DNA of 58,353 nt from Rhodospirillales bacterium (GTDB lineage: Bacteria; Pseudomonadota; Alphaproteobacteria; Dongiales; Dongiaceae): contig VFKA01000050.1 of NCBI GenBank assembly GCA_009885795.1, positions 1 through 58,353 of the forward strand, read 5' to 3'. This document shows, piece by piece, positions 11,634 to 47,752 of the stretch. Position 1 is the first letter of the stretch; every line of letters starts with the position of its first letter. Made by a program: the position numbers and the translations under genes. The notes under the pieces were generated by a model, which searched no databases, was not told where the DNA came from, and saw nothing but the letters and a program-made list of their open reading frames with translations.

Positions 11634-12340
11634 CGCAGCGGCGCAACGCTCTCGGCCAGCCGATCGGATTCGAACTATCGGGCTGGCGCCCGGCCCTTCG
11701 TCCCCCGCGAACCGCGATGGAAGGCCGCATGGCCCGCGTCGAGCCGCTTCGGCTTGACCACGCAGCCGATCTCTTCGAGGCCTATGCCGCCGATCGCGAT
11801 GCACGCATTTGGTCCTACATGGCCTACGGCCCGTTCGCGACCGCGGCCGGGCTTGGCGCCTGGATCGAGAAGGCCGCGCTCGGCGACGACCCCTTGTTCC
11901 ACGCCATCATCGACACCAAGTCAGGCAAGGCCGTGGGACAAGCGAGCTATCTCAGGATCGAACCCGCAACCGGCGTCATCGAGGTCGGGCATATCGTCTA
12001 TGCGCCATCCTTGCAACGCACGGCCGCCGCGACCGAGACCATGTTCCTGATGATGAAACGGGTCTTCGACGAACTGGGGTACCGCCGCTACGAATGGAAA
12101 TGCGACGCCTTGAACGAAGCCTCGCGGCGTGCGGCGCCTCGCCTCGGATTCACCTTCGAGGGCATCTTCCGCCAGGCGACCATCTACAAGGGCCGAAATC
12201 GCGACACGGCTTGGTATTCCGTCATCGACTCCGAATGGCCGGCGCTGAAAAGTTGCTACGAAGCCTGGCTCGATTCGTCGAACTTCGATTCCACCGGTCG
12301 CCAGCGCCGGACCCTGGCCGCGTTTCGAGGACTCAAATAA
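11630..12340 (+). CDS. RimJ/RimL-type GNAT acetyltransferase
   Basis: A 236-residue GNAT enzyme of the acetyltransf_3 type. The opening RNALGQPIGFELSGWRPALRPP and then MEGR-x-ARVEPL is characteristic of a family that begins this way, so the GTG start at 11630, overlapping the cyclase stop codon, is preferred to the internal ATG. Later blocks include GQASYLRIEPATGVIEVGHI and FDELGYRRYEWKCDALNEAS-RRAAPRLGF. The substrate is unknown. Its end overlaps the convergent PuuB-like gene by 8 bases. Confidence 0.85.
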   Translation: MTQRRNALGQPIGFELSGWRPALRPPRTAMEGRMARVEPLRLDHAADLFEAYAADRDARIWSYMAYGPFATAAGLGAWIEKAALGDDPLFHAIIDTKSGKAVGQASYLRIEPATGVIEVGHIVYAPSLQRTAAATETMFLMMKRVFDELGYRRYEWKCDALNEASRRAAPRLGFTFEGIFRQATIYKGRNRDTAWYSVIDSEWPALKSCYEAWLDSSNFDSTGRQRRTLAAFRGLK

Positions 12341-13613: not shown

Positions 13614-13622
13614 GCAATTCCG

Positions 13623-31106: not shown

Positions 31107-31132
31107 GGTTCCTCTCACTTCGTGATTGTTTT

Positions 31133-32605: not shown

Positions 32606-33278
32606 CGGCGTGATCGACGTGGAAGTTGTAGAGCTTGCGCGCCGAGCCGTAGCGCCGGAACCGCTTGGGGTCGGCCTTGATGCCGGCGCGGGCCAGAAGA
32701 TCGCGCAGGGTCTTGGCGTGGGCCGGCGTCATCTCCTTCTCGATGCAATCGGCGCCGAGGCTCTCGACCTTGCCTTGAACGTAGAGGATCGCCTCGTAGA
32801 TCGAATCGCCGAGGCTGGGGCCGGCGTCGCCGCACACGACCAGATGGCCGGATTGGGCCATGAAGGCGCTCATGTGGCCGACCGAACCGCCGACCACGAT
32901 GTCGACGCCTTTCATCGATATACCGCAGCGCGCGCTGGCATCGCCCTCGATGACGACGAGCCCCCCTTGCCCGGAAGCCGCGGCCGATTGCGAGGCGTTG
33001 CCTTTGACCCGCACCTCGCCCGACATGATGTTTTCGGCGACGCCCTGGCCGGCGTGGCCGTTGATGATGACAGTGGCCGCCTTGTTCATGCCGGCGCAAT
33101 AGTAACCGGTGTGGCCCTCGATTTCGACTTCAAGCGGCAGCGTGAGGCCGGCCGCGATCGCGTGTTCGCCCTTTGGATTGACGATACGCCAATGGCGCTC
33201 GTTGGTGCCGGGCGGCAGCGCATGCAGACGGCTATTCAAGTCCCGAACCGAGACGGAAGCGAGATCGACGGTGCTCAT
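32595..33278 (-). CDS. mgsB: N-methylglutamate synthase subunit B (GXGXG domain)
   Basis: A 227-residue protein of the glutamate synthase alpha-subunit C-terminal (GXGXG beta-helix) type, GlxC-like. Repeating turns such as GHTGYYCAGMNKAATVIING, GHAGQGVAENIMSGEVRVKG and VVIEGDASARCGISMKGVDI are visible. It structures the tunnel between amidotransferase and FMN domains in the complex. It overlaps mgsA by 4 bases (ATGA) and mgsC by 11 bases, so the three genes are translationally coupled. Confidence 0.88.
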   Translation of the reverse strand: MSTVDLASVSVRDLNSRLHALPPGTNERHWRIVNPKGEHAIAAGLTLPLEVEIEGHTGYYCAGMNKAATVIINGHAGQGVAENIMSGEVRVKGNASQSAAASGQGGLVVIEGDASARCGISMKGVDIVVGGSVGHMSAFMAQSGHLVVCGDAGPSLGDSIYEAILYVQGKVESLGADCIEKEMTPAHAKTLRDLLARAGIKADPKRFRRYGSARKLYNFHVDHADAY

Positions 33279-34183
33279 GCGGCTTTCGGAAGGCTCCAGG
33301 TGTAGACGACCGCGGGTTCCGGCTCCCAGATCTTCGCCTTGTCGACTCCGGGCAGATTGGCGAGGCTGCGGAACTCCGAGGCCATGGCGACCCAATCGTC
33401 GGTTTCGGCCAGGACCGCCGGCTTGCAGGCGATGGCGTCGCGCAGGACCGCGAAACCGTCCCGCGTTCCCATGGTGAAGGTGAAGAATCCGTCGAGATCC
33501 TTGAGGCCGGCTTCGAGCGCCTCGGCCAGCGTCGCGCCCTCGGACAGGCGATAGGCGAAATAGCGGGCGGCGACTTCGCTGTCGTTGTCGGTTTCGAATT
33601 CCAGGCCGCGTTTCCTCAGCCACTTGCGCAAATTGTTGTGGTTGCTGAGGCTGCCATTGTGCACCAGGCACATGTCGGCGGCAGCGGTGAAGGGATGGGA
33701 ATGCTCGGTCGTGACGGCGCTTTCGGTCGCCATCCGCGTGTGGCCGATCGCGTGCGTTCCCTCCATCGAGGCAAGACCATATTTGTCCGCGACTTCCGCC
33801 GGCAACCCCATGTCCTTGTAAACTTCCATGAGCTGGCCATAGCCCATGATCCGGATCTCCGGGTGGTGGCGGTGGAGCCAGGCGCGGGCCTTGTCCTCCG
33901 GCGCCGCCACGATCACGACGGCGTGGTTGCTCTTGTGCTCGACATCGACCTCGGCGTCGAACGCCTCGCCGAGCGCGCCGCCCACTTCCCGCCAGCGGTA
34001 TTGCGGGTCCGGGTGAAAGAGCGTCAGTTTGCTCCTGCCGGGTCCGGCCGGACGATGATAGACGGCGATACCGGCGCTATCCGGCCCGCGATCGGTCATG
34101 CCGATCAGCATGGCCTGGACGTGGCGGCCAAGCTCCGATTGCAACGCCGGATTCTTAAAGAACAGCCCTACGATTCCGCACAT
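33275..34183 (-). CDS. mgsA: N-methylglutamate synthase subunit A (class II glutamine amidotransferase)
   Basis: A 302-residue Ntn-type amidotransferase starting MCGIVGLFF, so Cys2 becomes the catalytic N-terminal nucleophile. GTHAIGHTRMATESAVTTEHSHPF and LVHNGSLSNHNNLRKWL are the conserved class II blocks. In NMG synthase it releases methylamine from gamma-glutamylmethylamide for transfer. It is GlxB-like. The 154 bases before it hold two dyads (34227-34241, 34250-34263), the most likely promoter for mgsABC-gmaS. Confidence 0.88.
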   Translation of the reverse strand: MCGIVGLFFKNPALQSELGRHVQAMLIGMTDRGPDSAGIAVYHRPAGPGRSKLTLFHPDPQYRWREVGGALGEAFDAEVDVEHKSNHAVVIVAAPEDKARAWLHRHHPEIRIMGYGQLMEVYKDMGLPAEVADKYGLASMEGTHAIGHTRMATESAVTTEHSHPFTAAADMCLVHNGSLSNHNNLRKWLRKRGLEFETDNDSEVAARYFAYRLSEGATLAEALEAGLKDLDGFFTFTMGTRDGFAVLRDAIACKPAVLAETDDWVAMASEFRSLANLPGVDKAKIWEPEPAVVYTWSLPKAA

Positions 34184-34337: not shown

Positions 34338-35057
34338 TCATGGGCCCCCCAGACGCCGCAACGCTTCCAAGCCGACGGCGGCACCTCCGAACTCCTCCAT
34401 CGCGTCGATGACGCAGGCCCAGAGATATTCGGCCGAGGCGCTGTCGGCGAGCAGGTGATATCCCGGCACGCCGCCGCGGTCCTCGCGGATGACGATGGCG
34501 TTCATCTTGGCCACCGAGGTCTGGGCGATGGCGAGATCGGGAAACCGATGCGTCCGCAAATCGACGCCGCAGATCTTGGAGAACATGGCCGGGCTTTCCG
34601 CGCCCGCGAGCGCGAACCAGGCGTGGCTGTCGGCGCGCGGCATGGGATAGCCGCAAGGCTTGCGCGGCTTCTCCTTTCCCCAACTCCAGGCGGCATCGAG
34701 ACGCGCGCTCAGACGCCCCTCGCCGCCGAGATCGTCGATCAGGAATATCTCGGTCGGCGCCAGGCGCGCCGCCAAGGCGCCGTTCGGCTGGCGATAGGCC
34801 TTGTTACTATCGGGGCCGATATCCAGGCCTTGCGACTGTAGCCACTCCACCGCGCCATTGCCTTTGAAACCGCAACGCGGCAGCGGCGACAGATCGGCGA
34901 TGGCCAGGTGTCGAGCCTTGTGTGTTTCCTCTTCGATGGAGCCGCGATAGCGCAGCGCCACTGCCGCGCCGCCGATCTCGCCGAACTCGGCGCCCGCTTC
35001 CGCCAGCACCCGGTAAAGGAAGCCGCGGCGCTTCAATGATGTGGGATCGATGCTCAT
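34338..35057 (-). CDS. mgdD: N-methylglutamate dehydrogenase gamma subunit (SoxG family)
   Basis: A 239-residue protein of the heterotetrameric sarcosine oxidase gamma-subunit (SoxG) family, a GcvT-like fold. RHLAIADLSPLPRCGFKGNGAVEWL, EIFLIDD and CGVDLRTHRFPDLAIAQTSVAKMNAIVIRED fit the family. It is 10 bases downstream of the alpha subunit. In NMG dehydrogenase it completes the four-subunit complex that oxidises N-methylglutamate. Confidence 0.87.
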   Translation of the reverse strand: MSIDPTSLKRRGFLYRVLAEAGAEFGEIGGAAVALRYRGSIEEETHKARHLAIADLSPLPRCGFKGNGAVEWLQSQGLDIGPDSNKAYRQPNGALAARLAPTEIFLIDDLGGEGRLSARLDAAWSWGKEKPRKPCGYPMPRADSHAWFALAGAESPAMFSKICGVDLRTHRFPDLAIAQTSVAKMNAIVIREDRGGVPGYHLLADSASAEYLWACVIDAMEEFGGAAVGLEALRRLGGP

Positions 35058-35067
35058 GCGTAATCCC

Positions 35068-37986
35068 CTACATCGCCTGGCGCTTGTTGTCGGGGTCGTA
35101 GAAGGGAGGGGAGATGACCCTGCCGCGAATCATCCGCCCTCCGGCGACCTTGATTTCGAACTGCGTATCGGGCGTCGCCTGGGCGGGAGCGACATAGGCT
35201 AGGCCCACCGTGGCGTCGAGCGTGGGCGAGCGCACCGCCGAGGTGACGCGGCCCACGATCTCGCCGCGATGAATGACGAGATGGCATTCATCCGGCACCG
35301 GCGCCGACTTGTCGTCGACGATGAAGCCGACGAGCTTGCGGGTGAGCGCCTTGCTGCCCTGGATTTCGATCGACCGGCCGCCGATGAAGAACGGCTTGTT
35401 CTTGGCGATGGCCCAGCCCATGCCGGCTTCGAGCGGGTGGGTGAGGCCGTCCGTATCCTGGCCGATGATGATGTGGCCTTTCTCCAGGCGAAGGACGCGC
35501 TGGGCCTCGACGCCGAAGGGCCTGATGTCCTCGAGCGCGCCCACCGCCATGATAGCGTCCCACAGGGCCTCGCCCTGACTTGCCGGAACGTGGATCTCGT
35601 AGCCAAGCTCGCCGACGAAGCCGACCCGCAACAGGCGCGCCGGGATGCCGGCCACCGTGCCCTGGCGCACGCCCATGTAAGGAAACGCCTCGGCGGAAAG
35701 ATCGACGTCCGAACACAGGCGCGACAGCACGGCGCGCGACTTCGGCCCGGCGAGATTGACCCCGGCATAAGCCGCGGTCACGTTGGCCACGTCGACGTCG
35801 AGGCGCCACTGCGCGTTCCAAAACAGCATGTGGCGGTAGACGGCATCGACGCCGCCGGTGGTGGCGGTGACATAGAAATGCTGGTCATGAAAACGGCAGG
35901 CGACGCCATCGTCGGTGATGACGCCGCTCTGGTCGGTCATCAAGACGTAGCGCGAACGGCCGACCGGCTGCTTGGCGTAAGCGAAGGTATAGAGACGGTT
36001 CAGCAGCTCGGCCGCGTCGGGACCGCGCACGTCGAGGCCGCCCAGGGTGGAGACGTCGATAAGACCGACATTGCGGCGTACCGCCAACACTTCCTCAAGG
36101 ATCGCCTTGTCGCGATCGGCCGGCACGCCATAATAGGCGGGGCGCAGCCACAGACCGGCCAGCATCATCCGGCCGCCGAGTTCGATATGGCGGTGGTGCA
36201 TGGCGGTGTAACGCACGGGCTCGAACCCGCGGCCGCCGAGATGGCCGAACTTCACCGGACGGTAAGGAGGGCGTTGGGTCGTGACGCCCAGCGCGGATAC
36301 GGGCCGACCGGTCTCCTTGGCCAGCACGCGCACGGCCGCGACGCCTGAGTGCCGCCCTTGCGAAGGCCCCATGCCGACCGTGGAATAGCGTTTCAGCAAC
36401 TCGATGTCGTCGTACCCATCGGCGATGGCATTCACCAGATCTTTAACCTGAAGATCTTCATCGAAGTCGATGAAATCCTTTCCTTTTTTGTGTGGAAAAA
36501 TTGGCCAAGGATGGGTCAAGTCCCGAGCACCGCTGTCGTAGGACGCCACCGGTTCGCTGCCGGTAACGGGCATCCCGGCATCGCGGGCCGCCAGCCAACC
36601 GGCCCGAATCCCTTCGGCGAGAACGGCGTCGAGATCGTAGGCGCCGTTCACCGAGCCCGAGGCAAGCACGCCGGCGGGCAGTTCCGCCGGCTGGAACATG
36701 TGGGTCGCCTCGTCATAGGCAAAGCGCGCGCCGGCATGATGCAGGAGCTGGCCCGCGGGCGTGTAGCCGACCGACATGCAAACGAGATCGCAGCCGACGA
36801 TCGTCGCGCCGCGCTCGTATCGGCCCTCGCCGACGATACGATTGACCAGCACCGCCGCCAGATGTTCGCCGTGGCGATTCTCGATCGCCTCGGAAATGGT
36901 GTGGCCGGCGAGGACGCGAATGCGCCGGTTGGCGACCGAGCGCGTCATGATCGTTGCTACCGGCGCCTCGCGCATATCGACGACCGCTTCCACCTCGACG
37001 CCGGCGTCATCGAGATCGAGGGCAACGCCATATCCATCGGCGTTGGCGGTGAGCACGACCGCCTTGCGGCCGGGCTTTACCCCGTAGAGATGAATGAGCC
37101 GCTGCGCCGCCGACCCCATCATGATTCCCGGCAGATCGTTATGGCGGAAGACCGCCGGCTGTTCCAGGGAACCGGTCGCGACCACGACCGATTTCGCGCG
37201 AATCTTGTAGAGCCGCTGCCCCGCCACGGCGGCCAGCCAGTTGTCGCCATAGAGGCCCGTGCAGGTACAATTCGACAGCACCGTCACGTTCTTGTGGCCG
37301 GCGAGGCGGCGCCGCAGCCGGCTGGCAACGGCGGCGCCCCGCACCCCTTGCGATTCGAACCGGGCATAACCGAGCGAGCCGCCAAGCTCCGGCATGTCGT
37401 CGATGAGGACGATTTCGGCGCCCGACGACGCCGCTTGCAAGGCGGCGGACATTCCCGCCGGCCCGCCGCCGATCACGGCGACATCGGCAAAGAGATACTG
37501 TTTGTCGAAATAACCGTGATGGGCGTGGACATCCACCTTGCCGAGGCCGGCGCGGTTGCGGATGATCGGTTCCCAAAATTTCCAGGCGCCCTTCGGCTTG
37601 AAGAACGCCTTGTAATAGAACCCGACCGGCATGAAGCGGGCCAGGCGCTCGACCACGCGACCGCGATCCTGATTGAGAAAGCCGTCGTAGTTCTGGCCTT
37701 CGGCCGCCAGGCCCTCGGCGATCGGCCGCAGATCGGCCAGCACGTTGGGTTCGGACCCGATCTGGACGAGCGTGTTGCCGTCCTGGCCGGCCATGGTGAG
37801 AACGCCGCGCGGCCGGCGGTACTTGAACGAGCGCGAGAGCAGCCATTCGCCATTGGCGCCAAGCGCGCTGGCGATCGTGTCGCCGGCGAGTCCGCGATAG
37901 GCGCGGCGCTCGAAGGTGAAGTCGATCGGGCGCCGACGGTCGATCAGCCTCCCATAGGGCTCCGGCAGTCGGTTGTCGGCGATCAT
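35068..37986 (-). CDS. mgdC: N-methylglutamate dehydrogenase alpha subunit (SoxA family)
   Basis: A 972-residue homologue of heterotetrameric sarcosine oxidase alpha, of normal length. The N-terminal ~110 residues form the ferredoxin-like segment (AGDTIASALGANGEWLLSRS-FKYRRPRGVL); a dinucleotide-binding domain follows (VAVIGGGPAGMSAALQAASSG at ~175), and the C-terminal ~380 residues form a GcvT-like folate-binding domain (NVGLIDVSTLGGLDVRGPDA, FVGELGYEIHV). The methyl group oxidised from N-methylglutamate can thus be captured on THF. It overlaps mgdB by 4 bases. Confidence 0.92.
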   Translation of the reverse strand: MIADNRLPEPYGRLIDRRRPIDFTFERRAYRGLAGDTIASALGANGEWLLSRSFKYRRPRGVLTMAGQDGNTLVQIGSEPNVLADLRPIAEGLAAEGQNYDGFLNQDRGRVVERLARFMPVGFYYKAFFKPKGAWKFWEPIIRNRAGLGKVDVHAHHGYFDKQYLFADVAVIGGGPAGMSAALQAASSGAEIVLIDDMPELGGSLGYARFESQGVRGAAVASRLRRRLAGHKNVTVLSNCTCTGLYGDNWLAAVAGQRLYKIRAKSVVVATGSLEQPAVFRHNDLPGIMMGSAAQRLIHLYGVKPGRKAVVLTANADGYGVALDLDDAGVEVEAVVDMREAPVATIMTRSVANRRIRVLAGHTISEAIENRHGEHLAAVLVNRIVGEGRYERGATIVGCDLVCMSVGYTPAGQLLHHAGARFAYDEATHMFQPAELPAGVLASGSVNGAYDLDAVLAEGIRAGWLAARDAGMPVTGSEPVASYDSGARDLTHPWPIFPHKKGKDFIDFDEDLQVKDLVNAIADGYDDIELLKRYSTVGMGPSQGRHSGVAAVRVLAKETGRPVSALGVTTQRPPYRPVKFGHLGGRGFEPVRYTAMHHRHIELGGRMMLAGLWLRPAYYGVPADRDKAILEEVLAVRRNVGLIDVSTLGGLDVRGPDAAELLNRLYTFAYAKQPVGRSRYVLMTDQSGVITDDGVACRFHDQHFYVTATTGGVDAVYRHMLFWNAQWRLDVDVANVTAAYAGVNLAGPKSRAVLSRLCSDVDLSAEAFPYMGVRQGTVAGIPARLLRVGFVGELGYEIHVPASQGEALWDAIMAVGALEDIRPFGVEAQRVLRLEKGHIIIGQDTDGLTHPLEAGMGWAIAKNKPFFIGGRSIEIQGSKALTRKLVGFIVDDKSAPVPDECHLVIHRGEIVGRVTSAVRSPTLDATVGLAYVAPAQATPDTQFEIKVAGGRMIRGRVISPPFYDPDNKRQAM

Positions 37987-38291
37987 GACCCGGGCTCGCC
38001 CGGCAAGGGGGCCGTCTTGAACTCGACGCGGTCCTTGAAGACCTCGGTGGCGCGGTAGGTGCGGACGATCTCGTCGCTCACGGTGTCGCGCTCGGCGATG
38101 AACCAGAACGAGGTCGGCACATGGCACCACCATTCCCGCACCATGCCGGCCGTGTTGTTTTCGAGGAAGACGTAGTCGGCCCATTCATGCGCGCCGCAGG
38201 TATTCGGGTCCGGCATCGCCCGCAACTCGCCGCCCCAGGCGAATTCGCTGATGTTGCGCGGGCCGTTCAACGGACAGTTCATGATTTTCAT
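37983..38291 (-). CDS. mgdB: N-methylglutamate dehydrogenase delta subunit (SoxD family)
   Basis: A 102-residue SoxD-type protein. MNCPLNGPRNISEFAWGGEL is the N-terminal metal-site region; in sarcosine oxidase SoxD it is C-P-x-C-G, so here the second Cys is Asn. WWCHVPTSFWFIAERDTVSDEI matches the C-terminal half including the His/Cys pair. Zinc binding may therefore be altered or lost. It has a 14-base gap to mgdA and overlaps mgdC by 4 bases. Confidence 0.87.
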   Translation of the reverse strand: MKIMNCPLNGPRNISEFAWGGELRAMPDPNTCGAHEWADYVFLENNTAGMVREWWCHVPTSFWFIAERDTVSDEIVRTYRATEVFKDRVEFKTAPLPGEPGS

Positions 38292-38305
38292 GACAGCGAC
38301 TCCGC

Positions 38306-39547
38306 TCAGTGTCCGACCGACGCCGCGCCCTTCTCGCCCACTTGCGCGAACTCCGCGAAGCGTTCGAGGCGGAAGGGATAGAGGATGTCCGGCACGCGGC
38401 CGGTGGCGATGAGTTCGGCCATGCGCCGGCCGCACACCGGCGTCGCCTTGAAGCCCCAGGTGCCCCAGCCGGAATCGATGTAGTAGTTGTCGAGCGGCGT
38501 CAGTCCCATGATCGGGCTGAAATCGGGCGTCATGTCGGCCATGCCGGCCCATTGGCGCGCCACATGCACGTCGCCGAGGAACGGGAACAGCTCGAGCATG
38601 TGCCCGAGCAGGCCTTCCTTGAAGTCCAACGTCGAGCGCGACGAGTAGAGGCCGTAGGGGTCGGTCGATCCGCCCATGACCAGTTCGCCGCGCGGCGTCT
38701 GCGAGATATAGATGTGCAGGCTGCCCGAGACCACGATCTGGTCGAGAAAGGGCTTCAACGGCAGCGACACGCAGGCCTGCAGCGGGATCGTCTTGATCGG
38801 CAGGCGGAAGCCGGCAAGTTTCGCCACCCGGCCGCTCGAACCCGCGACCGCCTGCATGGCCAGGCCGCAGCGAACGACGCCCTTCGTGGTCTCGACCGCC
38901 GTCACGCGCCCGTTCTCTTCATGGATGCCGATGACTTCGGTGTTGGTATGAATCTCGACGCCGCGGCGCGTGGCGGCGCGCGCATAGCCCCAGGCGACGG
39001 CATCGTGGCGGGCGATCGCTCCGGGAGGATGATAGAGCGCGCCCAGGATCGGATAACGCACGTCATGCGACAGGTTGAGCGACGGGCAAAGCCTGTGGAT
39101 GTCGTCGGGATAGATCAGCTCCGAATCGACGCCCATATGCTTGTTCACCTCGGCGCGCCACCGGCTGGTCCGCAACGCCGCGTCGGTATGCGCCAGCGTG
39201 AAATGCCCGCGCTCGGAATAGAGGATGTTGAAGTCGAGTTCCTCGCTCAACGTCCGGTAGAGGGCGAGGGATTCCTCGTAAAAGCGCACGCCGTCGGGCG
39301 TCAGGTAGTTCGAGCGGATGATCGCGGTGTTGCGCGCGGTATTGCCGCCGGCGAGATAGCCCTTGTCGATCACGCAGACATTGGTGATGTCGTGATAGGC
39401 GGCCAGGTAATAAGCGGCCGCGAGCCCATGGCCGCCGGCGCCGATGATGACGACGTCATAGGCGGGCTTAAGCTCCGTCGGAAGCGGGAAATGGCGCTCC
39501 ACCGGGTGCTTGCGCGAGAGTCCGTACTTCAATAATCCGAAGGGCAT
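38306..39547 (-). CDS. mgdA: N-methylglutamate dehydrogenase beta subunit (SoxB family)
   Basis: A 413-residue flavoprotein of the heterotetrameric sarcosine oxidase beta type. FAD-binding YDVVIIGAGGHGLAAAYYLA, GYLAGGNTARNTAIIRSNYL (covalent-FMN and FAD region of SoxB) and GWGTWGFKATPVCGRRMAELI are intact. It carries the oxidation site for N-methylglutamate. It is the first gene of the mgdABCD-mgsABC-gmaS run. The 83 bases upstream separate it from a divergent gene and should hold the promoter. Confidence 0.92.
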   Translation of the reverse strand: MPFGLLKYGLSRKHPVERHFPLPTELKPAYDVVIIGAGGHGLAAAYYLAAYHDITNVCVIDKGYLAGGNTARNTAIIRSNYLTPDGVRFYEESLALYRTLSEELDFNILYSERGHFTLAHTDAALRTSRWRAEVNKHMGVDSELIYPDDIHRLCPSLNLSHDVRYPILGALYHPPGAIARHDAVAWGYARAATRRGVEIHTNTEVIGIHEENGRVTAVETTKGVVRCGLAMQAVAGSSGRVAKLAGFRLPIKTIPLQACVSLPLKPFLDQIVVSGSLHIYISQTPRGELVMGGSTDPYGLYSSRSTLDFKEGLLGHMLELFPFLGDVHVARQWAGMADMTPDFSPIMGLTPLDNYYIDSGWGTWGFKATPVCGRRMAELIATGRVPDILYPFRLERFAEFAQVGEKGAASVGH

Positions 39548-39630: not shown

Positions 39631-40227
39631 ATGAGCGATACAACCGACAACGTGGTCCTGCTGGAAGCGGCGGCCGAGGCGCTGAGGGCCGAGTTCATCT
39701 TCTGGCAGTGCCGGGTGCGCCAAATCGCCATGCGCCAAGGCGGCGGCCGGCCGAGCGCCGGCATGCGCCCGCGCGTGTTCTCGCCCACGGGCGACGAACT
39801 CTCGCCCGGCATCGTCGTACTCGTCAACAAGGCCGAGCCCTTGGAAGCCATCCAGCAATTCCGCTACCAGGTCCTGAAGACGCAAGACCCGATCGAACGA
39901 CACGACAAGGCGCTCGAGATCATGGCCGGGATGTATTTCCAGCGCCCGCATGAGTTCGCCGACGTCCTGACCGCGCTGTTCGGCGAAGGCTCCGGCATCA
40001 TGCTCCGCCTGCTCGATTTCGGGAAATGCCTTTTGGCGTTCGAGCAATTCAACCAATCCTATCGCTTGCCGTGCCGCGTGCGGCTGCTGGCGCCATCCGA
40101 CGATCTCTACCAGGCGACCTACTGGCACAATCGACTGTTCAACCCGCGCATGCCGCCCGGCATCGGTGTCGTGAGCTTCACGCCCGACTGGACGCATGGC
40201 AGCGGCGCTCGAATCGAACCGGACTAA
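39631..40227 (+). CDS. Uncharacterised protein, 198 residues
   Basis: I do not recognise the family. It starts MSDTTDNVVLLEAAAEALRA behind AAGGA, and has mixed helical regions (KALEIMAGMYFQRPHEFADV, LLDFGKCLLAFEQFNQSYRL) and a Trp/Tyr-containing ending (DLYQATYWHNRLFNPRMPPG). No signal peptide or membrane segment is evident. It sits between the two glutamate-type amine operons on the opposite strand, divergent from mgdA (83 bases) and tail-to-tail with the 131-residue gene (4-base overlap). Confidence 0.75.
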   Translation: MSDTTDNVVLLEAAAEALRAEFIFWQCRVRQIAMRQGGGRPSAGMRPRVFSPTGDELSPGIVVLVNKAEPLEAIQQFRYQVLKTQDPIERHDKALEIMAGMYFQRPHEFADVLTALFGEGSGIMLRLLDFGKCLLAFEQFNQSYRLPCRVRLLAPSDDLYQATYWHNRLFNPRMPPGIGVVSFTPDWTHGSGARIEPD

Positions 40228-40619
40228 AACTTCTTATACGCCTTGCGCAACTCGACCATCGGATGGCGCGGCGACATTTGGAACTTGATCAGCATTTCGC
40301 GGGCGATCATGTCGCGGTCCTGTTGGTTATCCGGCAGTTTCATGTTTTTCGGGATCGTGACCCAGCCATTGACGTTGCGGTCGAAGACCGCCGCGCGGCC
40401 TTCCTCGTAGCCCATGTGAACGTCTTCCAGCCAATTGAGGTCGTCCCAGCCCATCAGCTCCATGTACTTGCGCAGGAACGGCGTCAGCCGCTTGTAGTCG
40501 GGCAGCAGATTGACGTCGTAGCGATAGCCGATGTGCTGGCCGATCTCCTTCTCGCGCTTGCTGTCGAGACCGGTCGATTTCAGGAACTTGTTGATGTCGG
40601 GCTTCTTGGCGCCGGGCAT
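40224..40619 (-). CDS. Uncharacterised protein ending the second glutamate-type operon, 131 residues
   Basis: I do not recognise the family. A Lys-rich N-terminus (MPGAKKPDINKFLKSTGLDS) leads into an aromatic/acidic section (LMGWDDLNWLEDVHMGYEEG) and a basic end (FQMSPRHPMVELRKAYKKF). No metal motif or signal peptide. It starts 10 bases after the FMN-domain gene, so it is almost certainly cotranscribed with the amidotransferase/GXGXG/FMN module and may be a structural or accessory subunit. The mgsABC operon has no equivalent here. Confidence 0.75.
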   Translation of the reverse strand: MPGAKKPDINKFLKSTGLDSKREKEIGQHIGYRYDVNLLPDYKRLTPFLRKYMELMGWDDLNWLEDVHMGYEEGRAAVFDRNVNGWVTIPKNMKLPDNQQDRDMIAREMLIKFQMSPRHPMVELRKAYKKF

Positions 40620-40629
40620 GGCCGATCTC

Positions 40630-42006
40630 CTAGTAACGCGTCATGTCGGGCCGGCCGACGGTGTGCTGGGTGCCGGCGAGCGGTACCATGGCGAGCGCCG
40701 AGGCCTCCATGGTGAGCGCCGCCAAATCCTCCGGTTCCAGGGAATGCACGTCGGTCTTGCCGCAGGCGCGCGCCATCATCTGACATTCGATGGCGAGGCA
40801 ATGCAGGAAGTTATAGACGCGCTCCGCGGCCTCGTCGGGATCGAGGCGCTTGCGCAACTCCGGATCCTGCGTCGTGACACCCACCGGACAGCGTCCAGTG
40901 TGGCAGTGGTAGCAGGAGCCGGCCTCGACACCGACTTCCTTCATGTAATCGGCTTCGGGGATGTCCTTGTTGCAATTGAGCGCCATCAGGGCCGAGTGGC
41001 CGATGGCGACCGCGTCGGCGCCGAGCGCCAGCGCCTTGGCCACGTCGGCGCCGTTGCGGATTCCGCCGGCATAGACGAGCGAGATCTGGCCCGACATGTT
41101 GAGGTCGTCGAGCGCCTTCCTGGCTTGGCGGATGGCGGCGATGCCGGGAACGCCCGTCTCCTCGGTCGCGATATGCGGGCCGGCGCCGGTGCCGCCTTCC
41201 ATGCCGTCGATATAGATGCTGTCCGGTCCGCACTTGACCGCCATGCGCACGTCGTCATAGACCCGCGCCGCGCCCAGCTTCAGTTGGATCGGCACCTGGT
41301 AGTCGGTAGCCTCGCGGATCTCCTGGATCTTGAGGGCGAGATCGTCGGGCCCGAGCCAGTCGGGATGGCGCGCGGGCGAGCGTTGGTCGATGCCGGCCGG
41401 AAGCGAGCGCATCTCGGCCACCTGGTCGGTCACCTTCTGGCCCATGAGATGGCCGCCCAAGCCCACCTTGCAGCCCTGGCCGATGAAGAATTCCACCGCG
41501 TCGGCGAGTTGAAGGTGGTTCGGGTTGAAGCCGTAGCGCGACTGGATGCACTGATAGAACCACTTCGAGGAATAGCGCCGTTCGTCGGGGATCATGCCGC
41601 CCTCGCCCGAACAAGTCGCCGTTCCGGCCATGGTGGCGCCGCGCGCGAGCGCGATCTTGGCTTCGAAGGAGAGCGCGCCGAAGCTCATGCCCGTAATGTA
41701 GATCGGGATGTCGAGAACCAGCGGGCGCTTCGCGTTGGGGCCGATGATGGTCTCGGTCAGGCATTTCTCGCGATAGCCCTCGATGACGAATCTCGTCAGC
41801 GTGCCGGGCAGGAAGGTGAGGTCGTCCCAGGTCGGGATCTTCTTGAACAGCGAGAAACCGCGCATGCGGTAGCGGCCGAGCTCCGACTTGATGTGGATGT
41901 CATCCATCACCTCGGGCGTGAAAATTTGGCTATGGCCGAGGACGTTGACGTTGCGCTTCGGCTTCTTCCGAAGCGCCGGAGCGGGGGCGAGTTTGCGCTT
42001 GGCCAT
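40630..42006 (-). CDS. FMN-binding glutamate synthase domain protein, second set (GlxD-like)
   Basis: A 458-residue homologue of MgsC/GlxD. Conserved blocks: YITGMSFGALSFEAKIALAR, AGTATCSGEGGMIPDERRYS, QSRYGFNPNHLQLADAVEFF, YIDGMEGGTGAGPHIATEE, YAGGIRNGADVAKALALGAD and the Cys cluster CYHCHTGRCPVGVTT. It is paralogous to the MgsC at 31133 but lacks its long basic extension and differs in many positions, so the two sets are old duplicates or independently acquired. Confidence 0.88.
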   Translation of the reverse strand: MAKRKLAPAPALRKKPKRNVNVLGHSQIFTPEVMDDIHIKSELGRYRMRGFSLFKKIPTWDDLTFLPGTLTRFVIEGYREKCLTETIIGPNAKRPLVLDIPIYITGMSFGALSFEAKIALARGATMAGTATCSGEGGMIPDERRYSSKWFYQCIQSRYGFNPNHLQLADAVEFFIGQGCKVGLGGHLMGQKVTDQVAEMRSLPAGIDQRSPARHPDWLGPDDLALKIQEIREATDYQVPIQLKLGAARVYDDVRMAVKCGPDSIYIDGMEGGTGAGPHIATEETGVPGIAAIRQARKALDDLNMSGQISLVYAGGIRNGADVAKALALGADAVAIGHSALMALNCNKDIPEADYMKEVGVEAGSCYHCHTGRCPVGVTTQDPELRKRLDPDEAAERVYNFLHCLAIECQMMARACGKTDVHSLEPEDLAALTMEASALAMVPLAGTQHTVGRPDMTRY

Positions 42007-42032
42007 GGAGATTTCCGTCCTATTAAGGGATT

Positions 42033-42869
42033 CTAGAGAACGATCTTCTTTTCGGCTGGCTCGAGATTGTCGTAATTCCAGAGTTGCTTGCCGGCGACGA
42101 TCTTGGTCAGGTTCTTGACGCCTTTCGGGGCAGCGAGGCCGTACATCTTCAGCTTGCGCTCCAGCCACTGGGCGTCGAGGTCGGTCATCTCGCCCGGCAC
42201 CGCGTCGACGCCGAGCCCGGCGATCTTGCCGCCGACATAGATCGTGCCGTCATACATGGAATCGCCGAGGTTCTTGCCGGCATCGCCGAGGATGACCATG
42301 CGGCCGCGCTGCATCATGAAGCCGCAAAAGGCGCCGCAGCGCCCGCCGACGATGATGGTGCCGCCCTTCATGTCGATGCCCATGCGGGCGCCGACATCGC
42401 CCATGCAGACGAGATCGCCGCCGCGCAGCGCGGCGCCGAAGGTGGAGCCCGCGTTCTTCGCCACCACCAACGTGCCGGACATCATGTTTTCGGCGCAGGA
42501 CCACCCCACCCGGCCCTTGATGCGGATATTGGGGCCGTCGATGAGCCCGCAGCCGAAATATCCGAGGCTGCCCTCGATGTAGAGCTGCAGGCGGTTCAAG
42601 ATGCCGACGGCGATGCCATGCTTGGCGCCGGGATTCTTGAGGACGATGGTGCCGTAGCCCTTGGCCATGAGATCGCGCAACTTCAGGTTAATCGCCTGCA
42701 CCGACAGCTTGGCGCAATCGAGCTCGGTGCGCTTGTTGTAGTCGACGTCGAAGGCGCCGGGACTGAGGAAATTCTCCTCTTCCTCCGGCGAGAAGAAGCG
42801 CTGCTGGGTGCGCCCGGCAAGCTGCTCGGTGTGCATCCCGAACTCATGGGATTTGTGTTCTGTTTTCAT
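42033..42869 (-). CDS. GXGXG glutamate synthase domain protein, second set (GlxC-like)
   Basis: A 278-residue beta-helix domain protein, about 50 residues longer than MgsB at the N-terminus (TEQLAGRTQQRFFSPEEEEN then FLSPG). Core turns include GSLGYFGCGLIDGPNIRIKG, VGWSCAENMMSGTLVV, GDVGARMGIDMKGGTIIVGG. It should join amidotransferase and FMN domains of a glutamate-synthase-type complex. Start 42869 is tentative: AAGG lies very close to it, and ATG 42836 is possible. Confidence 0.85.
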   Translation of the reverse strand: MKTEHKSHEFGMHTEQLAGRTQQRFFSPEEEENFLSPGAFDVDYNKRTELDCAKLSVQAINLKLRDLMAKGYGTIVLKNPGAKHGIAVGILNRLQLYIEGSLGYFGCGLIDGPNIRIKGRVGWSCAENMMSGTLVVAKNAGSTFGAALRGGDLVCMGDVGARMGIDMKGGTIIVGGRCGAFCGFMMQRGRMVILGDAGKNLGDSMYDGTIYVGGKIAGLGVDAVPGEMTDLDAQWLERKLKMYGLAAPKGVKNLTKIVAGKQLWNYDNLEPAEKKIVL

Positions 42870-42904
42870 CCTTCGTGACCTTACACCAATTCTCGACGCC
42901 GGAG

Positions 42905-43016
42905 ACCCGTGGCCCATCCTTCGAGACGCGTTCTTCGAACGCTCCTCAGGATGAGGAATGTTACCTCATGCCGGGGAGCCGCAAAGCGGCGTCTCGAAGC
43001 ATGGCGGCGGGGTCGA
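42905..43016. repeat. Dispersed palindromic repeat in the operon
   Basis: CATCCTTCGAGACGCGTTCT, TCGAACGCTCCTCAGGATGA and CCTCATGCCGGGGAGCCGCA then AAGCGGCGTCTCGAAGC. Near-identical sequence recurs at 58226-58353. It separates the amidotransferase and GXGXG genes. Confidence 0.8.
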
Positions 43017-43033
43017 AGCTCCAGGACACCGCA

Positions 43034-43975
43034 TCACGCGTTGCTGCTCCACACCCGCACTTCGCCCTCGTAGGGATCGACAGTGTCGATCTCGTGCGGG
43101 AAGATGCTGCGGATCGCCACTTCCTCGGACGCCAAGGCGATGAACTTGTCGCTCTCGTAGAGCACCATGGGTTTGGCCGCCATCACGTCCTTGGCCATGC
43201 CGAGCTTGTCGGCGGTCGCGACCAGATAGGTGAAAACGCCGTCGAGGCGGTCGATCGAGTCTTTCATCGCGTCTTCGAGCGCGGCGCCCTGCTGCATCCG
43301 GTCGGCAAGGTAAACGGCGATCAGCTCGGAATCGCAGTTCGACATGAAGCGGTGGCCGCGCCGCTCCATTTCCCGGCGCCCCTTCCAATAATTCGTGAGC
43401 TGGCCGTTATGCACCACCGACACGTCGGCGAAGGGATAGGCCCAGTAGGGATGCGCCGAGCGGATATCGACGTCGGATTCGGTCGCCATGCGGGTATGGC
43501 CGATGGCATGGGTGCCGTTGAAGCCGGGGAGCGCGTACTGCTCGGACACGCGCTTGGCGTCGCCGAGGTCCTTGATCAACTCCAACCCGTGGCCGATCGA
43601 CAGAATTTCGGCGCCTTCCACGTCCTCGATGTAGTTCGCCAATTTCCGCAGATCGCCCGAGAACGCGATGCGGTAGCGATAGGCGTACTCGGTGGCCAGA
43701 TCCTCCTCGAGAATCTTGCCGCCCAATTCGACGATGCGCCCATCGACCTTCTGCTTGCGCTCGGTCACCTGGCGGTGGATGTCGAAGCCCTTCGCCATGT
43801 CCTCTTGTTCCGCCACCTTGAAGCGGAGCACGAGTTCCTCCCCCTTCGGCTCGCCATAGAGGGCGTAACCGGTGGAATCCGGCCCGCGATGCTTCAACGA
43901 CTGCAACATGGCGGTCATTTCGCGGCCGATGTCGCCGGTGCCTTTTCGATGAATGAGTCCCGCGATGCCACACAT
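43034..43975 (-). CDS. Class II glutamine amidotransferase, second set (GlxB-like)
   Basis: A 313-residue Ntn amidotransferase starting MCGIAGLIHRKGTGD, with Cys2 nucleophile, and conserved GTHAIGHTRMATESDVDIRSAH-PYWAYPF and VVHNGQLTNYWKGRREM. Paralogous to MgsA at 33275 with an extra internal stretch after residue 50. It probably releases an amine (or ammonia) from a gamma-glutamylamide for its FMN partner. The ligase-like gene lies 27 bases upstream on the same strand. Confidence 0.88.
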   Translation of the reverse strand: MCGIAGLIHRKGTGDIGREMTAMLQSLKHRGPDSTGYALYGEPKGEELVLRFKVAEQEDMAKGFDIHRQVTERKQKVDGRIVELGGKILEEDLATEYAYRYRIAFSGDLRKLANYIEDVEGAEILSIGHGLELIKDLGDAKRVSEQYALPGFNGTHAIGHTRMATESDVDIRSAHPYWAYPFADVSVVHNGQLTNYWKGRREMERRGHRFMSNCDSELIAVYLADRMQQGAALEDAMKDSIDRLDGVFTYLVATADKLGMAKDVMAAKPMVLYESDKFIALASEEVAIRSIFPHEIDTVDPYEGEVRVWSSNA

Positions 43976-44002
43976 GGCGTAACGCTCCCTTGCCAGCCCG
44001 AA

Positions 44003-45469
44003 TTACGGCAGATAGTCCCAGTACTGCTCCAAATCCCAATGCGTGACCGTGGACATGAACCGCTCCCACTCGTCGCGCTTGTAATGGGTGAAGACACGGT
44101 ACATCTCGTTCGGCATCGCCGACTTGACGACCTCGTCCTTGTCGAGTTCCGCGAGCGCGTCGCCCAGCGACATCGGCAGCTTCTTCACCTTCTTGCCCGC
44201 CGCCATCGCCTGATAGATGTTGCGCTCTTCCGGCTCGCCCGGATCGAGCTTGAGGCGAATGCCGTCGTCGAAGGATTTCAAGATTCCCGCCGCCATCAGA
44301 TAGGGATTGACCGTCGAATCCACCGAGCGGTACTCGAAGCGCCCCGGCGCCGAGATGCGCAGCGCGCAGGTGCGGTTCTGATAACCCCAATCGGCATAGA
44401 CCGGCGCCCAGAATCCGGTGTCCCACAGCCGGCGATAGGAGTTGACGGTGGACGATCCGATGGCGGTGAGCGCGCCGACGTGTTTGATGAGGCCGCCGAT
44501 CGAATGGAGCCCGATCGGACCCGGCTTCCTCTCGCCCTTGCGCGGCAGGAAGGTATTCTCGCCGCCCTTGCGGTAGGTGAAGTTCTCGGCGAGACCCGGC
44601 AGCGTTTTGTGGTGCAGGTTGTTCACCTTGTCCTCGCCGCCATGCCACAGCGACAGATTGTGGTGGCAGCCATTCGCCGACACGCCCATGAAGGGCTTGG
44701 CCATGAAGCAGGCGATCAGGTTGAATTCGCGCGCGACCTGGGCGCAGATTTGGCGGTAGGTGGTGAGCCGGTCGGCGGTCCGCAGCGCGTCGTCGAACAT
44801 GAAGTTCAACTCGAGCTGGCCCGGCGCGTCCTCATGATCGCCCTGGATCATGTCGAGGCCCATGGCCTGCGAATACTCGATGGCGCGCAGGAACACGGGC
44901 CGCAAGGATTCGAACTGGTCGATGTGGTAGCAGTTGGGCTTGGAAAAGCCGCCATCGGGCAAGCCGTCGGCACCCTTCTTCAGCCACATCATCTCCGGCT
45001 CGCAGCCGTGGCGCAGATGCAGGCCCTTGTGGTCCTTCTGGAACTGGTCGTGGATGCGCCGCAGATTGCCGCGGCAGTCCGAAGTGAGATACCCGCCCGG
45101 ATCGACTTTTTCCTCGCGGTTGCGGAAACAGGTGCAGAAGACGCGGGCGACACGCTTGTCCCACGGCAATTGGCAGAACGTCTCCGGGTCGGGAATGCCG
45201 ACAAGCTCCGAAGCCTCGGGGCCGTAGCCGATGTAGTTGCGGTGCCGGTCGACGAAGAGATTGGCGGTCGAGCCGTAGACGAGCTGGAAGCCCCGCTCGG
45301 CGATCTGTTCCCAATGATCCGCCGGGACGCCCTTGCCGACGACGCGGCCGGTCACCGAGACGAACTGGTAATAGATGTATTGAATTCCAAGCTCGTCGAT
45401 CCGGGCGCGAACCTGTTTGACGAGTTCCTTGCGCCCCTTCTGGCTGACATGAGCTTCCAAGTCGGTCAT
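44003..45469 (-). CDS. GS-family gamma-glutamylamine ligase, second set
   Basis: A 488-residue glutamine synthetase superfamily protein, longer than GmaS at 29799. Motifs: YIYYQFVSVTGRVVGKGVPA, HGCEPEMMWL (catalytic E), QGDHEDAPGQLELNFMFDDAL, SANGCHHNLSLWHG, NSYRRLWDTGFWAPVYADWG and NRTCALRISAPGRFEYRSVDST. The clustering with glutamate-synthase-type genes and an amine-type FAD oxidoreductase suggests ligation of glutamate with an amine. The insert around residues 300-330 (HKTLPGLAENFTYRKGGENT) and the substituted amine pocket set it apart from GmaS, so another amine substrate is likely. Confidence 0.82.
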   Translation of the reverse strand: MTDLEAHVSQKGRKELVKQVRARIDELGIQYIYYQFVSVTGRVVGKGVPADHWEQIAERGFQLVYGSTANLFVDRHRNYIGYGPEASELVGIPDPETFCQLPWDKRVARVFCTCFRNREEKVDPGGYLTSDCRGNLRRIHDQFQKDHKGLHLRHGCEPEMMWLKKGADGLPDGGFSKPNCYHIDQFESLRPVFLRAIEYSQAMGLDMIQGDHEDAPGQLELNFMFDDALRTADRLTTYRQICAQVAREFNLIACFMAKPFMGVSANGCHHNLSLWHGGEDKVNNLHHKTLPGLAENFTYRKGGENTFLPRKGERKPGPIGLHSIGGLIKHVGALTAIGSSTVNSYRRLWDTGFWAPVYADWGYQNRTCALRISAPGRFEYRSVDSTVNPYLMAAGILKSFDDGIRLKLDPGEPEERNIYQAMAAGKKVKKLPMSLGDALAELDKDEVVKSAMPNEMYRVFTHYKRDEWERFMSTVTHWDLEQYWDYLP

Positions 45470-45540
45470 CTCGATCCCCCCATTGGCGGCGACCGTCGAA
45501 GCCGGACGCCTATTTCTAGTCTAGCGCGACGCCGCCGCTC

Positions 45541-46881
45541 TCAGCTCCACGGAAACGGGCTGTGCGACACCGGATGCAGGCGCCCCGCCGCGAAACGCGA
45601 AAAGCGGAAAGGCTCGAGCAGATCGCTCGCGTGCCCCATGATATCGTCGGCCACCAATTTGCCAACCCCGATCATCTTGTAGCCGTGATTGGAATCGGCG
45701 ATCACATAGACGTTCTCGCAAAAGCTGTCGAAGACCGGAAAGCTGTCTGCGGTAAAGCAGCCGATGCCGCCGGACGGTTCCTTCTTGTATTTCGGGATCT
45801 GCCCTTCGAAGCGTTTCTGGCAGAAGGCCAGCGCCGAGCACCACATATGGGCGAAATCGTCGCCGACGATGAAATCCGGCGAGTCCGGGCCGTAGGGATC
45901 GACCGCCACCTCGTCGGCCGGCGTTTCGATCTTGTACGGCATGGCGCCGCCCTGAATGCCGCCGAAATTGAAATCGGGCTTGTAGTAGATGCCCCAGAGC
46001 TTGTCGGTGATGAGCGAGCCGTCCACGTCGGAAACGAGCGGCGCGTCGGTATCGACGTGAATCACCGGCGGCATCTTGCCGTCGTTGGTGCGCTGCAGCT
46101 TGGGATCGACGCCCAGCGTTCCCTCCTGAAGGCTCCAATAGACCCACATCGGCACGCCCCGGTGCGTCTGGCCGTCGCGGCCCTTGATGTCGATGTCCTT
46201 CGGCAGGTCAAGCATGTCCCAAATCTGCTTCACCCACGGGCCGACGCCGACGATGACGTGGTCGCAGGCGATCGTGCCGCGGTCGGTGACCGCCGCCTTC
46301 ACCGCGCCCGCATTGTCCTTCTCGAAACCGATCACCTTGACACCCGTCATGATGCGCACGCCCTCGGCCTCGGCCTTCTTGGCGAGACCATAGATCGATT
46401 TCGTGTTGTTGGCGTAGCCGCCCTTCTTCTCGTGCAGCACCGAGGTGATGCCTTCGGCCTGCCAATCGTCGAGCAGGCCCTTCATGTAAGTCGTGCAGTC
46501 CTTCTCACCCTCGATGAACTGGGAGTCGTAGCCGATCTCCTTCTGCTGCCGGGCGATCTGGGCCACGTCCTCGTGCATCACCTCCGGGCTGATCTGCATG
46601 TAGCCGACCGGGTGAAAGCTGAAGGCCTCGGGGTCGCTTTCCCATACCGATACGCTGTGCGCCATGAGGCGGCGCATGGCCGGCTGGAAGTAGTTGTTGC
46701 GGATGACGCCACAGGCGATGCCCGACGCCCCGGCGGCGATGCCGGCCTTGTCGATCACGAGCACGTCCTTGCCGCCGCCCTTGCCGGATTTACGAAGATT
46801 TTCAGCAAGATGCCAGGCGGTGCTGAGGCCGTGGATGCCGGCGCCGATGACCAGGTACTTCGCATGCGTTGGGAATGCCAT
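45541..46881 (-). CDS. Single-chain FAD-dependent amine/amino acid oxidoreductase (DAO family)
   Basis: A 446-residue flavoprotein. FAD motif KYLVIGAGIHGLSTAWHLAE, then DKAGIAAGASGIACGVIRNNYFQ and the C-terminal NVYVIADSNHGYKMIGVGKLVA. It resembles sarcosine/dimethylglycine-type oxidases and SoxB, but no SoxA, D or G partner lies in this operon. It is the first gene of the second glutamate-type operon, so it probably oxidises the N-substituted glutamate made by that module (inference). Divergent from a GntR regulator; the 127-base gap is the likely control region. Confidence 0.82.
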   Translation of the reverse strand: MAFPTHAKYLVIGAGIHGLSTAWHLAENLRKSGKGGGKDVLVIDKAGIAAGASGIACGVIRNNYFQPAMRRLMAHSVSVWESDPEAFSFHPVGYMQISPEVMHEDVAQIARQQKEIGYDSQFIEGEKDCTTYMKGLLDDWQAEGITSVLHEKKGGYANNTKSIYGLAKKAEAEGVRIMTGVKVIGFEKDNAGAVKAAVTDRGTIACDHVIVGVGPWVKQIWDMLDLPKDIDIKGRDGQTHRGVPMWVYWSLQEGTLGVDPKLQRTNDGKMPPVIHVDTDAPLVSDVDGSLITDKLWGIYYKPDFNFGGIQGGAMPYKIETPADEVAVDPYGPDSPDFIVGDDFAHMWCSALAFCQKRFEGQIPKYKKEPSGGIGCFTADSFPVFDSFCENVYVIADSNHGYKMIGVGKLVADDIMGHASDLLEPFRFSRFAAGRLHPVSHSPFPWS

Positions 46882-47008
46882 GGCCCGGGGTCCCTCCTCC
46901 ACCGCCTGCGCGGCCCCTAGTTGTTGGCGGCGCGCTTGACGGAATAATCGGCATCCTACAATCTGTGCTGGTCCGATTTCAAACCAATTTTTCACAAAGG
47001 TGTGGGAT

Positions 47009-47752
47009 ATGGCGAGAATTGGTTCCAGCCAGCCCGCCCGCCGCGACGCGGGCACCGCCGAGGCCGGAATCATCGCCGATCCGGCGCGGGGCTCCGCATG
47101 GATCACGGGCCAATTGCGCCACGCCATCCTCGAAGGCGGCTACGGACACGGCGACAAACTGCCGGCCGAGCGCCATCTGGCCGATGCGTTCGGCGCGTCG
47201 CGCACGACCGTGCGCCTGGCGCTCGACAATCTCGAAAATGAGGGCCTGGTGAGCCGGCGCATCGGCAGCGGCACCTTCGTCAACTTTCCCAATCCGCTCG
47301 ATTCCGCCGAGGTCGTCGAATCCACCAGCCCGCTCGAACTCATCGACGTGCGGCTCGGCGTCGAACCCAACATGGTGCGCCTCGCGGTGCTGCACGCCAC
47401 CGCGCGCGACGTGGCGCGGCTGGAGCAGGCGGTCGGGCGGCTGGACGGCGTCGGCGGCGACGTCGAAAGCTTCAGCCGGCTCGACGAGGAGTTCCACGTG
47501 GTCATCGCCGAGAGTACCCACAACCCGCTGATGCTGTTCCTCTACCGCCAGATCAACGAGGTGCGCACCCACGCCCAATGGAATGCCATGAAGGGCAAGG
47601 TGCTGACGCCCGAGCGCATCGGCGAGTACAACCGCCAGCACCGCGCCATGTACGAGGCCATCCGCAGCCGCGACGTGGACGCCGCCGTCGCCATCGTCAC
47701 CAATCACCTGCACTATGCGCGAAGGCAGCTTCTCGGCGCGGCAAGGGAGTAG
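47009..47752 (+). CDS. GntR/FadR-type transcription regulator (FCD domain)
   Basis: A 247-residue regulator. Residues ~30-95 are the GntR winged helix (GSAWITGQLRHAILEGGYGH, LPAERHLADAFGASRTTVRLAL, LENEGLVSRRIGSGTFVNF); residues ~110-240 are an all-helical FCD ligand domain with the metal-binding-type Asp/His positions (SRLDEEFHVVIAESTHNPLM, HRAMYEAIRSRDVDAAVAIV). It is divergent from the FAD oxidoreductase, so it probably controls the second glutamate-type operon in response to an organic acid or amino acid derivative. AAAGGTG precedes ATG 47009. Confidence 0.9.
   Translation: MARIGSSQPARRDAGTAEAGIIADPARGSAWITGQLRHAILEGGYGHGDKLPAERHLADAFGASRTTVRLALDNLENEGLVSRRIGSGTFVNFPNPLDSAEVVESTSPLELIDVRLGVEPNMVRLAVLHATARDVARLEQAVGRLDGVGGDVESFSRLDEEFHVVIAESTHNPLMLFLYRQINEVRTHAQWNAMKGKVLTPERIGEYNRQHRAMYEAIRSRDVDAAVAIVTNHLHYARRQLLGAARE

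Follow-up and report, generated by a model that had tools for sequence, protein, structure and literature searches.

Dimethylamine (DMA) is a climate-relevant amine. According to the available text of two earlier papers, it is the product of the trimethylamine N-oxide (TMAO) demethylase Tdm, and the enzyme that usually acts next is DmmDABC (PMC5520151, PMC8918994). The N-methylglutamate pathway combines a glutamine synthetase (GS)-like ligase (GmaS), an amidotransferase with GXGXG and flavin mononucleotide (FMN) subunits (MgsABC) and a flavin dehydrogenase (MgdABCD). Here we describe a six-gene operon on the minus strand at positions 40224-46881 of a 58,353-nucleotide stretch (the window) of contig VFKA01000050.1, from a Rhodospirillales bacterium of the Dongiaceae, which shares all of these component types and the GmaS amine pocket. 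From its gene content and distribution we propose, with a little more confidence than doubt, that it encodes a dmm-independent, ATP-dependent DMA pathway running through gamma-glutamyl-dimethylamide and N,N-dimethylglutamate to N-methylglutamate, and finished by MgdABCD.

The strongest result is the mutual exclusion of this operon, followed through its ligase GS2, and DmmA-family (PF11927) genes among genomes with Tdm, in which the operon differs from the N-methylglutamate pathway. Among 62 distinct Tdm-positive genomes, 34 carry GS2 only, 25 PF11927 only, none both and three neither (G259, G670 and G701). The distance to Tdm is no more than 20 kb for GS2 in 24 of the 34 genomes and for PF11927 in 17 of the 25. 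The class sample of 289 genomes (three separate searches that each report 289 genomes, with displayed handles that agree and full lists that are not displayed) holds GS2 in 29, Tdm in 24 and PF11927 in 35. Tdm occurs there in 19/29 genomes with GS2 versus 5/260 without, and the Tdm-positive genomes divide into 19 with GS2 and no PF11927, four with PF11927 and one, G259, with neither; in G022 the PF11927 match is partial and the Tdm match the weakest. A draw of 398 genomes across the phylum gave 27 Tdm-positive genomes, 21 of them new, all 21 with PF11927 and none with a GS2 match above 53% identity, while 58 genomes belonging to G207's order hold GS2 in 17, Tdm in 18, both in 16 and PF11927 in none. 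The window's own genome (99.89% complete) has no PF11927 match and encodes a Tdm of 1256 bits, over the NCBIfam cut-off of 1100; the copy used as query, at locus L067, scores 1216 bits and that of L110 falls just under, at 1082. The operon thus appears to occupy the same step as DmmDABC, DMA use after Tdm, and the same place near Tdm, and gene distribution supports the view that it replaces Dmm. The two differ in that no operon protein matches PF11927 and in that the chemistry proposed here depends on ATP and glutamate, not on oxygen.

If GS2 and its synthase handle DMA as GmaS and MgsABC handle methylamine, their product would be N,N-dimethylglutamate. GS2 would use ATP to join DMA to glutamate, giving gamma-glutamyl-dimethylamide, from which the complex of amidotransferase, GXGXG and FMN subunits, perhaps with the 131-residue protein encoded last in the operon, would free DMA internally and couple it reductively to 2-oxoglutarate. 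The flavin adenine dinucleotide (FAD) enzyme of the operon would then take off one methyl group, leaving N-methylglutamate, and the neighbouring MgdABCD the second, releasing glutamate while the one-carbon unit passes to folate. An adjacent pair of N-demethylating dehydrogenases suits the two methyl groups, and the scheme likewise accommodates the gene content of G048, G173 and G269 (81-86% complete), which hold the operon and mgd genes without a canonical mgsC. The first-pass annotation had read the operon as a diverged repeat of the glutamate-linked genes that serves some other N-substituted amine, an outline that is partly supported and to which our data add DMA as the most likely substrate. 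Whereas the replacement of Dmm is backed by gene distribution, the intermediates, including an N-alkylglutamate on which the FAD enzyme would act, are what we infer from the enzymes present.

The operon comprises six co-directional genes, encoding in order the FAD oxidoreductase, GS2, a class II amidotransferase, a GXGXG protein, an FMN protein and the 131-residue protein (Table 1). Coordinates and Pfam/NCBIfam matches confirm both these genes and the repeat of gmaS-mgsABC-mgd logic read from them earlier, and their spacing suggests a single transcript. A full gmaS-mgsABC-mgdABCD set adjoins, to whose parts those of the operon are 29-52% identical. GS2 is 29% identical to gmaS and, as first described, longer (488 versus 435 residues); the amidotransferase, which starts MCGI, is 35% identical to mgsA; and the FMN protein, which carries the motif CYHCHTGRCPVG, is 52% identical to mgsC, with 44 fixed differing columns between 17 operon and five canonical sequences. 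An mgsC-like protein of G252 (L178:10475-11836) lacks the cysteine motif found in the other 21 aligned sequences. The extra small protein is likewise real and kept with the set. A single-chain FAD oxidoreductase without a GCV_T domain is present as annotated, but it is no substitute for the four-subunit, folate-domain dehydrogenase, because mgdABCD stands intact next door, outside the operon.

Table 1. Features of the operon and its surroundings in the window (positions as numbered in the 58,353-nucleotide stretch).
Feature	Coordinates	Strand	Comment
FAD-dependent oxidoreductase, DAO family	45541..46881	-	no folate (GCV_T) domain; PF01266 123 bits on longer ORF 45544-47127
GS2, GS-like ligase	44003..45469	-	488 aa; PF00120; TIGR03105 304 bits (cut-off 469.6)
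Class II glutamine amidotransferase-like subunit (MgsA-like)	43034..43975	-	PF13522/PF13537; N terminus MCGIAG
GXGXG subunit (MgsB-like)	about 42033..42869	-	PF01493; start set by comparing relatives
FMN glutamate-synthase-like subunit (MgsC-like)	about 40630..42006	-	PF01645 306 bits; start set by comparing relatives
131-aa protein	40224..40619	-	fold not assigned; kept with the set
GntR/FCD regulator, divergent from FAD gene	47000..47752	+	PF07729, PF00392
Convergent neighbour N1, predicted FMN/heme-type split-barrel fold	39631..40227	+	ends against 131-aa gene
mgdABCD, canonical N-methylglutamate dehydrogenase genes	34338..39547	-	GCV_T domains; soxB, soxA models
mgdA	39547-38306	-	part of mgdABCD
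mgdB	about 38291-37983	-	assigned by position
mgdC	about 37986-35068	-	part of mgdABCD
mgdD	35057-34338	-	part of mgdABCD
mgsA	34183-33275	-	canonical set 29799..34183
mgsB	33278-32595	-	canonical set 29799..34183
mgsC	32605-31133	-	canonical set 29799..34183
gmaS	31106-29799	-	435 aa; TIGR03105 665 bits, over cut-off 469.6

The genes of the set travel together. A GS2 search of genome contigs found at least 80 loci, and the best 80 (74-86% identical), most of them metagenome-assembled, comprise 24 cyanobacterial loci and 56 others labelled Alpha-, Beta- and Gammaproteobacteria, SAR324, Deltaproteobacteria, Acidobacteria, Gemmatimonadetes and Coatesbacteria; the six-gene cluster is seen in both soil and ocean bacteria. 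The earlier proposal had been staked on consistent co-occurrence, and the amidotransferase, GXGXG, FMN and 131-residue genes are all present in 32/32 non-cyanobacterial loci among these 80 whose sequence extends 4.2 kb or more downstream of GS2, so that co-occurrence outside cyanobacteria exceeds chance. Many of the 56 loci end early at contig ends, and the GXGXG gene was found in 46. Of the same 56, 31 were found to carry the FAD gene, 43 GntR, 19 the convergent gene, 16 Amt, 12 formate-tetrahydrofolate ligase and five FolD, and FolB occurs in seven loci, a neighbourhood suggestive of amine uptake and one-carbon metabolism. At some loci the GntR gene adjoins a gene for a protein with DUF1989 and GCV_T domains, whose copies at L067 and L110 gave the Tdm scores above. 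In G077 the FMN and GXGXG genes are separated by an open reading frame (ORF) resembling an IS110-type transposase (L114:6395-7569). Upstream of the FAD gene no operator site was common to the loci tried, and none was found in the window. Palindromes TGGTCNGACCA, presumably similar to FCD-type GntR operators, occur there at L011:2506-2518, L035:6405-6415 and L041:6404-6414 and were not found in the window.

Cyanobacterial loci have other neighbours. Across the 24, which lack synthase genes nearby (examples are L053:31-9470, L031:1-8373, L081:2561-9467 and L068:572-9467), GS2 is accompanied by solute-binding protein (15 loci), PhyH (11), acyl-CoA-dehydrogenase-like (five) and Amt (four) genes, and more rarely by primary-amine oxidase (two) genes and Tdm-like pieces (three), the last of which we count in favour of DMA. 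These neighbours perhaps provide another way to complete DMA use.

GS2 looks like an alkylamine ligase because it keeps the residues of the GmaS amine pocket. The available text of PMC7948447 assigns Lys30, Tyr147, Gln175, Asp177, Glu179, Glu186 and Asn188 to the pocket of RhGmaS, and Trp300 to its flap. All are kept in 32/32 GS2 and 7/7 gmaS sequences, the Lys30 equivalent being located by alignment only. RhGmaS itself is described in that text as accepting DMA, though poorly (Km 16 mM versus 27 uM for methylamine; PMC7948447). The flap Glu of ammonia-dependent GS is absent from 32/32 GS2 sequences, with Trp in its place. The six other GS-like genes compared from the window's genome lack Gln175 in 6/6 cases and Asp177 in 4/6; they carry the Lys in 6/6 and the Trp in 3/6, and thus these two residues do not discriminate. 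The first-pass annotation had also looked to the phylogeny of the ligase, and GS2 falls outside the GmaS clade: in a 50-row tree (midpoint root, six other rows on long branches), GS2 and its paralogues form one group (100/99) and gmaS another (99/99), the latter represented by the window's gmaS and six relatives standing in for experimentally characterised GmaS.

Although TIGR03105 is the best NCBIfam match of GS2, as expected of a type III glutamine synthetase GlnT, the name under which SAR11_1305 is annotated (PMC5069961), the score below cut-off, the separate clade and the missing flap Glu led us to reject both GmaS and GlnT as its identity. The gamma-glutamylputrescine pathway resembles our scheme in that PuuA also ligates an amine to glutamate, but GS2 scores only 224 bits against NF045547 (cut-off 650) and its partners are of synthase type rather than Puu type. 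The type III GS model matches eight places in the window's genome, and the window itself holds two more GS-like genes (12333-14990 and 17842-19191), one of which adjoins a DAO-family oxidoreductase. Paralogues 53-56% identical to GS2 occur on Ruegeria and Paracoccus plasmids (L181:5449-14489, L182:6523-12690), where each neighbours another GS-like gene together with a type 1 amidotransferase and, at L181, also a cytochrome P450.

The FAD protein scores 68 bits against the soxB model, far below its cut-off of 529, and with TMAO and methylamine genes as neighbours we rejected sarcosine or betaine catabolism as the role of the set. Homologues of this protein occur in 41/45 GS2-positive genomes. 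The 131-residue protein is 67-78% identical across 20 relatives and matches no Pfam or NCBIfam family. Its structural model (pLDDT 75.7) has no fold match at E <= 0.001; a marginal sequence match to one solved structure, a TLAP2-labelled protein (E 5e-4 over 67 residues), was not taken as its identity. The convergent gene has no family match either, and its model (pLDDT 93.1) has a best Foldseek E value of 8e-5, to split-barrel proteins, at a TM-score of about 0.3-0.45. Past it the order runs mgdABCD, mgsABC, gmaS and a formate-tetrahydrofolate ligase; the soxB (479 bits) and soxA (882 bits) scores of the mgd region are both under the subfamily cut-offs.

A number of observations, here and in the next paragraph, weigh against a DMA pathway. 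The GS2 and Dmm groups have no family in common (10 versus 9 families, and one family with neither), and because they fall in different families, lineage is not controlled in this contrast. PF11927 is broad, being unassociated with Tdm in the class sample (4/35 versus 20/254, p 0.51), and GS2 and PF11927 show no significant relation there when Tdm is disregarded (p 0.22); these Fisher tests take genomes or families as independent, though they are related. Eleven GS2-positive genomes lack Tdm, namely 10 of the 29 in the class sample and G681, and none of the 24 cyanobacterial loci among the best 80 has synthase genes near GS2. Five GS2 paralogues with data keep all eight amine-pocket and flap residues yet have other partners, and thus the pocket is no proof of DMA in particular. 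The set may instead handle another amine, such as ethylamine or a larger secondary amine, with the link to Tdm reflecting a shared habitat of methylated-amine users. The difference in families, the class genomes without Tdm and the P450, ABC transporter and type 1 amidotransferase genes around the paralogue clade all suit this explanation, which we nevertheless think the least probable of the three considered, as GS2 and PF11927 never meet in the 62 Tdm-positive genomes and GS2 is so often close to Tdm.

Canonical mgsC is missing from 25/45 GS2-positive genomes, and some of these (L110, L173 and L175) keep gmaS, so that there the operon, or at least its synthase, may also serve methylamine. 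Going further, GS2 could be a second GmaS working with a second MgsABC, and the FAD protein a single-chain N-methylglutamate dehydrogenase. The identical pocket residues and the linkage to Amt are consistent with such an isofunctional methylamine pathway. Yet 20/45 GS2-positive genomes do have canonical mgsC at 70% identity or more (including G266, which has only a GS2 paralogue), the window holds both full sets, the FAD protein and MgdABCD would duplicate each other, and the 34 Tdm-positive genomes without DmmA-family genes would be left with no DMA enzyme within our survey, outside which trimethylamine-dehydrogenase-type DMA dehydrogenases fall. We regard it as improbable, if the least so of the three. 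The FAD gene is itself imperfectly tied to GS2. It is missing from four of the 45 genomes (G071, G077, G193 and G266), occurs with PF11927 in G159, and in G670 and G701 accompanies Tdm without GS2. In these last two, Tdm flanks it on one side and a sox/mgd-like set on the other, with neither GS2 nor synthase genes (L169:2935-6719, L170:7613-11397). Such an arrangement, and the adjacency of tags 1304 and 1303 in Pelagibacter HTCC1062 (PMC3160333), would suit an FAD protein that alone acts as dehydrogenase or oxidase of free DMA, leaving GS2 and the synthase to take up the resulting methylamine. G077, however, has the operon and no FAD match, and the protein is of the DAO family, its nearest models acting on amino acids such as sarcosine. 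To our knowledge, no DAO-family enzyme acts on simple dialkylamines, and we judge this division of labour marginally less probable than a duplicate methylamine pathway.

In the SAR11-like order sampled, the operon lies no more than 20 kb from Tdm in 16/18 Tdm-positive genomes. G207, a single contig of 1.2 Mb that is probably a SAR11 member, carries at locus L110 (33% G+C) genes for a ProX-like binding protein, Tdm, a 116-residue protein, the FAD protein, GS2, the amidotransferase, the GXGXG and FMN proteins, a 131-residue-type protein, Amt and GmaS, in that order. Published HTCC1062 locus tags read 1302 opuAC and 1305 glnT (PMC5069961), 1303 aminomethyltransferase and 1304 monomeric sarcosine oxidase (PMC3160333), and 1309 hypothetical and 1310 amt (PMC2704228), with a separate glxBCD-glnT at 1313-1316 (PMC3160333); the series leaves no number for the 116-residue gene. 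Gene order and these tags suggest that SAR11_1304-1309 is this operon.

The available text of PMC8918994 reports that HTCC1062, which has no dmmDABC, grows weakly when TMAO is its only source of nitrogen, and proposes an unknown isoenzyme of DmmDABC; that of PMC5520151 calls the absence of dmmDABC from SAR11 and other abundant marine bacteria intriguing, and infers from it a DMA bottleneck at sea. Among listings from the open-licence literature in PMC, a body that excludes subscription papers and preprints, none describes the operon as a DMA route. Our confidence falls just short of even that SAR11_1304-1309 is the unrecognised DMA step of SAR11, and probably also that of Thioglobus, SAR324 and many soil and aquatic bacteria, working with ATP through gamma-glutamyl-dimethylamide and N,N-dimethylglutamate and without a monooxygenase. 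The operon is thus a concrete candidate for the DMA step whose genes were missing in abundant ocean bacteria and, if it acts as proposed, the marine DMA bottleneck deduced from missing dmmDABC would need revision.

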